Shown in pieces: positions 1,212 through 55,045 of a DNA stretch of 64,000 nt; the stretch's first letter is position 1; every line of letters starts with the position of its first letter. Under the pieces are notes generated by a model that saw only the letters and a program-made list of their open reading frames with translations, ran no database searches and was not told the origin of the DNA. This DNA comes from Phycisphaeraceae bacterium (lineage in GTDB: Bacteria; Planctomycetota; Phycisphaerae; Phycisphaerales; Phycisphaeraceae). Location of the stretch: positions 1 through 64,000 of the forward strand of contig JAJDCU010000001.1 in NCBI GenBank assembly GCA_029260655.1, in the 5' to 3' direction. The position numbers and the translations under genes were made by a program.

Positions 1212-1223
1212 GTTACTACCACT

Positions 1224-1299
1224 TAGCGGGCGATCGCAGATCGCCGGGATTTTGACCCGTTGGGGCAACGCACGCGGATCTGTGATCCGCCGTTAAACG
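1224..1299. repeat. REP/MITE-like palindromic element, copy A
   Basis: TTAGCGG...CCGTTAAAC imperfect terminal inverted repeats enclosing hairpins GGCGATC-GCA-GATCGCC (1230-1246) and GCGGATC-TGT-GATCCGC (1275-1291). Second copy at 28671-28744 in inverse orientation. Confidence 0.8.
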
Positions 1300-23954: not shown

Positions 23955-24120
23955 GCTGTTAGCCATTAGCCAGTAGCCAGTAGCCTTTAGCAATCAGCAG
24001 TTAGCCTATGCAGTCAAAACAACAAAACCCTCGGTTGAGGCCGAGGGTTTTTGTTTTATCTATTCGGGCGCCTCGGCTTCTGTCTAATAGCTTATAGCTA
24101 ACAGCTAAAGGCTATTCGCT
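23955..24120. repeat. period-7 (NNTAGCC-type) repeats in inverted orientation flanking a terminator
   Basis: Left: gttagcc/attagcc/agtagcc/agtagcc/tttagca/atcagca/gttagcc (23958-24006). Right: ctaatag/cttatag/ctaacag/ctaaagg/ctattcg (24084-24118); tagcctttagc and gctaaaggcta are exact reverse complements. Confidence 0.85.
24024..24056. terminator. bidirectional rho-independent terminator between convergent genes
   Basis: AAAACCCTCGG-TTGAGG-CCGAGGGTTTT, 11-bp perfect stem with T-tract on + and A-tract on the other side. Confidence 0.93.
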
Positions 24121-27134: not shown

Positions 27135-28610
27135 CTACTGTCCCATCGCGTCCGCCAGCGTCGTGCCCTTGGCGGCGTTGAGTTGCGCTGTGTGCAGTTG
27201 GGCGACCACCTCGGTGCCGTCGAGCCGGGCGCGGTTGCGTTCTCGCATGGCGGCTTGCTGGCTGATGTCCAGTAGCTCATCGATGCCGATGCGCTCCGGC
27301 GGCCGGGCGAGGGTGTAGGCGGGGACGCCGGGCTCGCCGTGCTCGATGTGGTGGATGACGTTGGCGCTGGTCAGCAGGTCGATCAAGGATGCGATGGCCC
27401 GGCCGGGCAGCCCGGTCGCAGATTGCAATTCATTGGCCCGCACCGATTCACCCTGCTCGAACGCTTTGCCGATCATCACGGCCAGCGGGATCATCCACCG
27501 CGGGTCGAACAATACGTCCCGATCCTCAGCCAGGCGCTGGCTCTTGAATCGCCGGCCGTCCATCGCCTGGATCGTGTACGTCACCTCGACCCCAAACAGA
27601 ACGACCAGCCAGGTAAACCACAGCCATAGGAGGAACAGGGGGAGCAGGGCAAGCGCGCCGTAGAGGCTGGCGGTCCCGGCATAGAGGACATAAATCTTGA
27701 AGCCCTCGATGGTCCCGGTCCAGACCACCGCCGCGACAAATCCTCCGGTTAACGCTGCCCGGCTTTTGACTTTGGTGTTGGGCAGGAATTGATACATCAG
27801 GGCCAGCAGCAGCCAGGTTGTGACGAACGGGGTGATCAACGCCGTAAATCCGCCCAGCCAACCGACGGATTGTCCTGTGGCTTCCGCCGCTTGTTCGATG
27901 AGGGTGATGATCCGGCTTTGCACGAACTGCCCGGACAGTAATAGCAGCGGTGCGAGTGTGATCGCGGTGTAGTACAGCGGCAGCCGGACATACAGCGGGC
28001 GTCCATAAGGCGCGTCAAAGATGCGGTTGAAGCTGTGCTCAATCGTGGACAAGAGTTTGGTAGCCGCCAAGAGAAATATCACCACACCGACCGCACCGAT
28101 GCTTGCGAAGTTGATCCCCTCGAGCCAGTTAAGCAGGGCTTGTGCCTGCTCGTCCAGGTCTTGCAGCAAAAGCTTGTAGGACCCGGCGCGGTCGTCAGAC
28201 GCAGCGTCTTGAATCGGTGACGGTGCCGTGACGGCCTGTTCGGAGGCGGGGTCGGGTGCGTCGGTGCTGATCTCTACCGGCGCTTCTTCCCCCGTCTCTG
28301 TATCTCCCTCCGCTTCGACCCATTGCAAAGCAAAGTCGATCACGTCCTGCTTGAGTTTTTCTCGGTCTTCGACACCGACAAACGTCTGCATCACCACCAG
28401 CATCAACACGATCGTCGGCAGCAGGCTGAAGAGGGTGTGATACGTCAGCGCGGCGGCCATCTCCCCGGCCCGGTCGGCGCGCAGCTCCAAAGCGCAGTAG
28501 CGCCCAAAGTCCAGGATATATCGCAGCGACCGCTGGGCGCGCGTCAGCTCTTCCAGCGGCTCGGTCAGTAATCGGTGGACGCTATCGCGAATCCGTTGGA
28601 GCAGTTTCAT
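27135..28610 (-). CDS. YihY/BrkB-type inner membrane protein
   Basis: 'MAAALTYHTLFSLLPTIVLMLVVMQTF', 'FNRIFDAPYGRPLYVRLPLYYTAI', 'LFLLWLWFTWLVVLFGVEVTYTIQA'. Start at MKLLQRIRD. Acidic insert after first TM segment. Confidence 0.9.
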   Translation of the reverse strand: MKLLQRIRDSVHRLLTEPLEELTRAQRSLRYILDFGRYCALELRADRAGEMAAALTYHTLFSLLPTIVLMLVVMQTFVGVEDREKLKQDVIDFALQWVEAEGDTETGEEAPVEISTDAPDPASEQAVTAPSPIQDAASDDRAGSYKLLLQDLDEQAQALLNWLEGINFASIGAVGVVIFLLAATKLLSTIEHSFNRIFDAPYGRPLYVRLPLYYTAITLAPLLLLSGQFVQSRIITLIEQAAEATGQSVGWLGGFTALITPFVTTWLLLALMYQFLPNTKVKSRAALTGGFVAAVVWTGTIEGFKIYVLYAGTASLYGALALLPLFLLWLWFTWLVVLFGVEVTYTIQAMDGRRFKSQRLAEDRDVLFDPRWMIPLAVMIGKAFEQGESVRANELQSATGLPGRAIASLIDLLTSANVIHHIEHGEPGVPAYTLARPPERIGIDELLDISQQAAMRERNRARLDGTEVVAQLHTAQLNAAKGTTLADAMGQ

Positions 28611-28670
28611 AGGCAGATGGTCGAGCAGGGGGGCTGGGTTGTCAATACGTGTGGCCGTTATGGACTTGCT

Positions 28671-28744
28671 GTTTAGCGGCGGATCGAAGATCCGCATGTC
28701 GGTCTCATGGGCCCAGCACGGCGATCTGCGATCGCCCGCTAAAC
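28671..28744. repeat. REP/MITE-like palindromic element, copy B
   Basis: 8-bp perfect terminal inverted repeat GTTTAGCG/CGCTAAAC; hairpins GCGGATC-GAA-GATCCGC and GGCGATC-TGC-GATCGCC; inverse orientation of copy A. Confidence 0.85.
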
Positions 28745-55018: not shown

Positions 55019-55045
55019 AAGCCCACGTTTGGCGAACGTGGGCTT
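55019..55045. terminator. bidirectional-type hairpin between convergent genes
   Basis: AAGCCCACGTT-TGGCG-AACGTGGGCTT, 11-bp perfect stem; a T6 run lies about 15 nt downstream. Confidence 0.75.

Follow-up and report, generated by a model that had tools for sequence, protein, structure and literature searches.

What kind of element occupies the intergenic gap near the left end of the 64,000-nt stretch of Phycisphaeraceae bacterium DNA analysed here (the window), and what, if anything, propagates it? The first-pass annotation had noted in this gap two distinct hairpins with GATC-centred arms enclosed by terminal inverted repeats (copy A), had pointed to an inverted counterpart further along the window (copy B) and had offered REP/BIME repeats or non-autonomous MITEs as models. 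We consider it highly probable that copy A and copy B belong, as BIME-type REPINs, to a planctomycete REP family and are copied as single-stranded DNA by a RAYT transposase encoded on contig C51 of the same genome. The genes bordering the gap had been named lptD-like and SurA/PpiD-like, names that are weakly supported, since the frame at 207–1211 has no Pfam match and that at 1392–3395 matches SurA_N_3 below the cut-off (E = 4e-4).

Both hairpins of copy A are present with perfect stems, together with a third, weaker one in the spacer that had been missed and that several other copies preserve better (Table 1). The terminal inverted repeats are there as described, although both depart slightly from the consensus, the left one running from 1222 with CTTAGCG in place of GTTTAGCG and the right one reading CGTTAAAC (consensus CGCTAAAC). 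Copy B has the same architecture in inverted order, as had been reported, with perfect ends on both sides. Folded as single-stranded DNA, copies A and B gave z-scores of −3.05 and −3.47 relative to shuffled sequences, and for each copy a single one of the 200 shuffles was as stable, demonstrating that both folds exceed chance. The longest frame of a BrkB/YihY-like gene (PF03631; window 27135–28697) overlaps copy B at its 5′ end; a start at the ATG near 28609 would keep copy B intergenic.

Table 1. Features of copies A and B in the 64-kb window.
Feature	Position	Strand	Remarks
Copy A, read as a REPIN (head-to-head REP doublet)	1221..1299	.	alpha unit left, beta unit right
Copy A alpha tag CTTAGCG	1222..1228	+	family consensus GTTTAGCG
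Copy A alpha hairpin GGCGATC-GCA-GATCGCC	1229..1245	+	perfect stem
Copy A spacer hairpin TTGACCC-GTT-GGGGCAA	1252..1268	+	weak, middle; one mismatch
Copy A beta hairpin, tag strand GCGGATC-ACA-GATCCGC	1274..1290	-	perfect stem
Copy A beta tag, tag strand GTTTAACG	1291..1298	-	consensus GTTTAGCG
Copy B, doublet of the copy A type	28671..28744	.	order inverted (beta left, alpha right)
Copy B beta hairpin GCGGATC-GAA-GATCCGC	28679..28695	+	
Copy B alpha hairpin, tag strand GGCGATC-GCA-GATCGCC	28720..28736	-	

The host is a congener of the MAG OFTM41; its genome (G000) comprises 3.52 Mb in 83 contigs and is 95% complete, and host and relatives alike are mostly metagenome-assembled genomes. A covariance-model search had been proposed at first pass, with two lone copies and nothing conserved in relatives as the outcome that would count against a repeat family. 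Using a model of the single unit we instead recovered 83 units in the host genome at E ≤ 1e-4 (85 below 1e-3), forming about 56 elements, namely 27 head-to-head doublets and 29 other units. The end pattern TTTAGCGG-n-GATC matched 68 times, against 2 matches for the reversed control pattern. Each unit consists of C-Y-GTTTAGCG followed by a 7-bp stem with a 3-nt loop (mostly GCA or a near variant), and the stems are of two types, alpha (GGCGATC/GATCGCC) and beta (GCGGATC/GATCCGC). The doublets span 67–91 bp (n = 27) with their tags at the outer ends, and all 27 join an alpha to a beta unit, the stems being exact or near-exact in 20 and substituted or truncated, and assigned by eye, in 7. The tags at either end of a doublet are able to base-pair (GTTTAGCGG/CCGCTAAAC), giving 9-bp terminal inverted repeats and a larger closed structure, and a third, weaker hairpin is often present in the spacer. 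Across the host-genome units 96.3% of stem cells are paired. The arms also covary, with two-sided changes in 67 stem cells compared with 28.5 ± 3.0 in shuffles; the alpha/beta difference accounts for much of the 67, and changes beyond it are seen in GCGGTTC/GAACCGC, GCGGGTC/GACCCGC, GTGGATC/GATCCAC and GTCGATC/GATCGAC.

With genes called by codon score on the host-genome stretches around the elements, 54 of 56 elements fell outside predicted genes, as against 24% of positions drawn at random from these stretches. The gaps concerned are convergent in 19 cases, tandem in 28 and divergent in 5. Comparison with two congeners showed that the gap matching that of copy A is occupied in G003 and lacks copy A in G002, and that copy B is missing at the matching gap in both. 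These element-free sites are not clean (some 40 further bases differ at the copy B site), leaving the exact insertion joints unreadable. In G002 the gap matching copy A (L075) is occupied by another insert, whose inverted arms are AGGAAATTTAGAAAATAG-like and which includes a TTTAGCGGCTTGAGCCGC hairpin.

From genus to genus within one family, the number of units per genome ranges from 0 to 135. Strict alpha/beta pairing is seen in the window's genus. We considered whether unlike ends are an ancient rule of the whole RAYT clade described below and rejected this, since the doublets of G013, from another genus of the family, are alpha/alpha and some clade REPtrons, L184 and L199 among them, pair like stems. 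Other arrangements also occur. Five alpha units lie head-to-tail with a constant period of 117 bp in a relative (G019:C43:17633–18128), and in the host genome some nine beta units that are not part of a doublet have in common an upstream stretch with GGCTTGCC at its end, several of them a downstream stretch as well. Loci of this kind were found both in the host genome (L134:1069–1330, L164, L162, L167, L120) and in relatives (L099, L100, L107, L109), their left arms matching the reverse complement of their right arms across copies. The beta unit thus seems to form the apex of an imperfect palindrome of ~200 bp, a second and larger composite repeat.

The search for a RAYT elsewhere in the genome, likewise proposed at first pass, was successful. 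Three Y1 transposase matches occur in the host genome, and the one at C51:11511–12053 (locus L031) is flanked by five units of the copy A/B family, three within ~220 bp upstream and two within ~120 bp downstream. The encoded protein has the motifs HVH, W and Y---NP of an HUH enzyme with one catalytic tyrosine, and it matches PF01797 (E = 4e-11) as well as the NCBIfam model REP_Tyr_transpos (E = 9e-17), the latter at 61.3 bits, below the curated cut-off of 80 bits. Its predicted structure (pLDDT 85, pTM 0.81) resembles those of IS200/IS605 transposases (ISDra2, IS608) and of E. coli TnpAREP (4ER8). HUH, W, Y---NP and an IS200-like fold together place it among the RAYT/TnpAREP proteins (TnpAY1 class 2), Y---NP being the class 2 signature (PMC6006769). 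Close relatives of the C51 RAYT, 82% (G005) and 57% (G019) identical over the aligned part, are flanked by the same hairpin type, and a relative in OFTM41 shares 83% identity with it.

Nine genomes have the repeat family, and in three of these a RAYT is flanked by this hairpin type; the other six have RAYTs of the same clade with other GTTTAGC hairpins or none nearby, perhaps through gaps in the assemblies, through loss or because the RAYT acts in trans. Presence of the RAYT was associated with presence of the repeat family across 25 genomes (Fisher P = 1e-4), a result to which we give little weight because the RAYT cut-off was chosen after the data had been seen and six of the genomes belong to one genus. 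A second RAYT of the clade in the host genome (L033:1150–2060; G000:C16, ~85.0–85.9 kb), its frame apparently shifted near the N-terminus, is surrounded by decayed TTTAGCGCCGCCCC hairpins, with only one intact unit in G000, and is probably a dying REPtron.

We delimited the clade by scanning a single genome from each species, taking loci with at least 34% identity in the best segment. All 46 loci so defined are in Planctomycetota. Within 250 bp of these RAYTs the word GTTTAGC occurs 80 times (3.59 per kb) compared with twice (0.03 per kb) at 600–1400 bp, a density difference of about 120-fold. The 34 RAYTs more distant from the clade have two occurrences nearby in all (0.12 per kb), which is near background, and neither the reversed word nor GTAG is enriched near the 46 clade RAYTs. 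The tag stays constant while the stems change from locus to locus (GATC types, GACGC, GGGGC, CGCGAGC, TCGGCG and others). GATC-centred arms, prominent in the original description, are therefore not what defines these repeats, and a GATC arm core as the functional core, for example as Dam sites, was rejected on the same grounds. The tag continues as GTTTAGCG, as GTTTAGCC or, in one supported subclade, as GAAGCG, and the variant follows the RAYT tree, requiring 5 changes compared with 14.6 when the labels, which were assigned by hand, are shuffled. Planctomycetales bacterium ZRK34, whose genome is complete, has a clade RAYT (711.6–712.3 kb) flanked by GTTTAGCC hairpins, for which there are 32 exact-pattern copies and 0 of the reversed pattern. 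A poorly designed generic GTTTAGC pattern gave counts no better than its reversed control in four genomes and was set aside.

In the clade the motif residues H104, W149, Y165, N169 and P170 are invariant and H106 is found in 35 of 36 sequences. In E. coli TnpAREP, W94, Q95, E/D100, H/R101 and R104 bind or accompany the GTAG tag (PMC8266576, PMC6006769). When the clade residues were placed by profile alignment to 4ER8, tryptophan was kept at the W94 position (33 of 36), whereas Q95 was mostly A, E100 mostly K or C, H101 mostly V and R104 mostly N or D (E. coli numbering). Thus four of the five GTAG-contact residues are replaced, and the clade lacks the residue set of the GTAG-reading RAYT subclasses 2.2, 2.4, 2.5 and 2.7. 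As a correlation between aligned sequences, these replacements would fit a different tag.

How do these repeats compare with known systems? The REP/BIME reading is borne out by the many intergenic units with covarying arms, by their inverted pairs and by a RAYT flanked by the same units. The REPINs and BIMEs of Pseudomonas and enterobacteria (PMC3116915, PMC3733652) share with the present family short tagged hairpins, an intergenic location, a RAYT flanked by its own units and head-to-head dimers 20–100 bp apart with partly conserved spacers. Here, however, the tag is GTTTAGC rather than GTAG, the host belongs to the Planctomycetota and all 27 doublets are heterodimers, a form that PMC3733652 records for several families. 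The copy A/B family is a REPIN/RAYT system in all testable features except the tag. With the tag GTTTAGCG it has neither the GTAG or GT[AG]G at the 5′ foot of the GTAG superfamily nor the CGTC end of the CGTC superfamily, which has no dedicated transposase, whereas a RAYT is linked here.

Resemblances to three other groups are partial. Group 3 REPtrons of Stenotrophomonas and Marinomonas (PMC8266576) have a similar perfect short stem and short loop, and in Marinomonas the tag lies 2 nt from the stem, as in TTAG-CG-stem here; their tag, however, ends in GTAG rather than TTAG, and they keep the Q95, D100 and R104 that are lost here. TnpAY1 class 3, which PMC6006769 reports mainly from Planctomycetes and Acidobacteria, is alike in phylum, in a conserved N-terminal extension and in atypical tags near the gene, but it has Y----Q and a CnGA foot where the clade has Y---NP and GTTTAGC. 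TIRYTs and TIRtrons are likewise RAYT-like genes flanked by non-GTAG inverted repeats, sometimes as multicopy dimers, and the motif-sharing repeats published in PMC3733652 carry GGGGWSAS, unlike those here, though the sequences in its figures may include an overlapping planctomycete entry.

We infer that the C51 RAYT copies and inserts the doublets as folded single strands. It would recognise the folded REP strand through tag and hairpin, with the tag as guide, and would cut next to the tag, the conserved C-Y before GTTTAG being a candidate cut or target site; insertion of a doublet would leave no duplication. The enzymes of relatives bind the REP strand only and cut at CT or CA beside the REP, the tag helping in the choice of site (PMC8266576).

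One competing explanation is a classical MITE, a DDE insertion sequence reduced to a non-autonomous remnant that the transposase of the parent element would move via the terminal inverted repeats. Inverted repeats of 9 bp and the size of the doublets agree with this, but no target-site duplication of at least 4 bp was found at the flanks of the 27 doublets, which look random beyond the C-Y-GTTTAG junction. Moreover, units also occur singly, each end has a hairpin of its own and the gene with such ends on either side codes for an HUH rather than a DDE enzyme. The MITE model offered at first pass is thus disfavoured in its classical DDE sense and we regard it as very improbable. That repeat and RAYT are neighbours by accident, REPs being common and insertion beside a RAYT requiring no mechanism, could draw on the exact pairing in only three of nine genomes; given the steep fall of tag density away from the 46 clade genes and the two matches at 34 control RAYTs, coincidence is scarcely credible.

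A different objection concerns present function: the hairpins could be maintained as host elements (mRNA 3′ ends, transcription attenuation or binding sites for host proteins), their mobility belonging to the past. The enrichment in convergent and tandem gaps and the compensatory stem changes would fit, and some E. coli REPs are reported to act in such ways (PMC6006769). Selection at the RNA level, however, predicts an excess of G-U over A-C mismatches, and we found no strand bias of wobble mismatches in the stems (14 G-T and 11 A-C), which also do not identify the folded strand. Rfam gave no match around copy A, and the matching gaps without copy A or B in congeners and the spread of unit numbers between genera of one family also argue against host elements, making this explanation improbable. 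REPINs copied by the C51 RAYT remain our preferred reading.

Beyond copies A and B, we lean slightly towards a broader view, in which GTTTAGC REPs would add a third superfamily to the tagged REPs of the GTAG and CGTC types, spread across Planctomycetota and tied to one RAYT clade whose tag-reading residues changed alongside the tag as a co-evolving recognition code, and in which doublets of the window's genus must have two different ends, like the left and right ends of an IS. GTTTAGC tags or such RAYTs in Planctomycetota were not found among the searchable papers; the supplements and figures of PMC3733652 and PMC6006769 may list part of them under another name. The present family takes the REPIN/RAYT partnership, studied mainly in Proteobacteria, into a deep and largely uncultured phylum, where it comes with another recognition tag. 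How the enzymes read the tag and choose the cut site is partly open in PMC8266576, and a natural change of tag with matching changes in guide contacts offers a direct test of both. Likewise, alpha/beta doublets in one genus and alpha/alpha doublets in G013 provide material on the unexplained heterodimer preference noted in PMC3733652.

Other RAYTs of the same bacterial family (L054, L051, L058, L071 and L044) are accompanied by hairpins with the tags GTAG, TATAG, CAGAG, AAAG and TTCCG, of which CAGAG fits the class 3 CnGA foot, so that tag types vary widely within a single family. Finally, the window contains two perfect hairpins of 10–11 bp between A and T runs, at 24024–24051 (AAAACCCTCGG...CCGAGGGTTTT) and 55019–55045 (AAGCCCACGTT...AACGTGGGCTT), which are likely to be ordinary intrinsic terminators.
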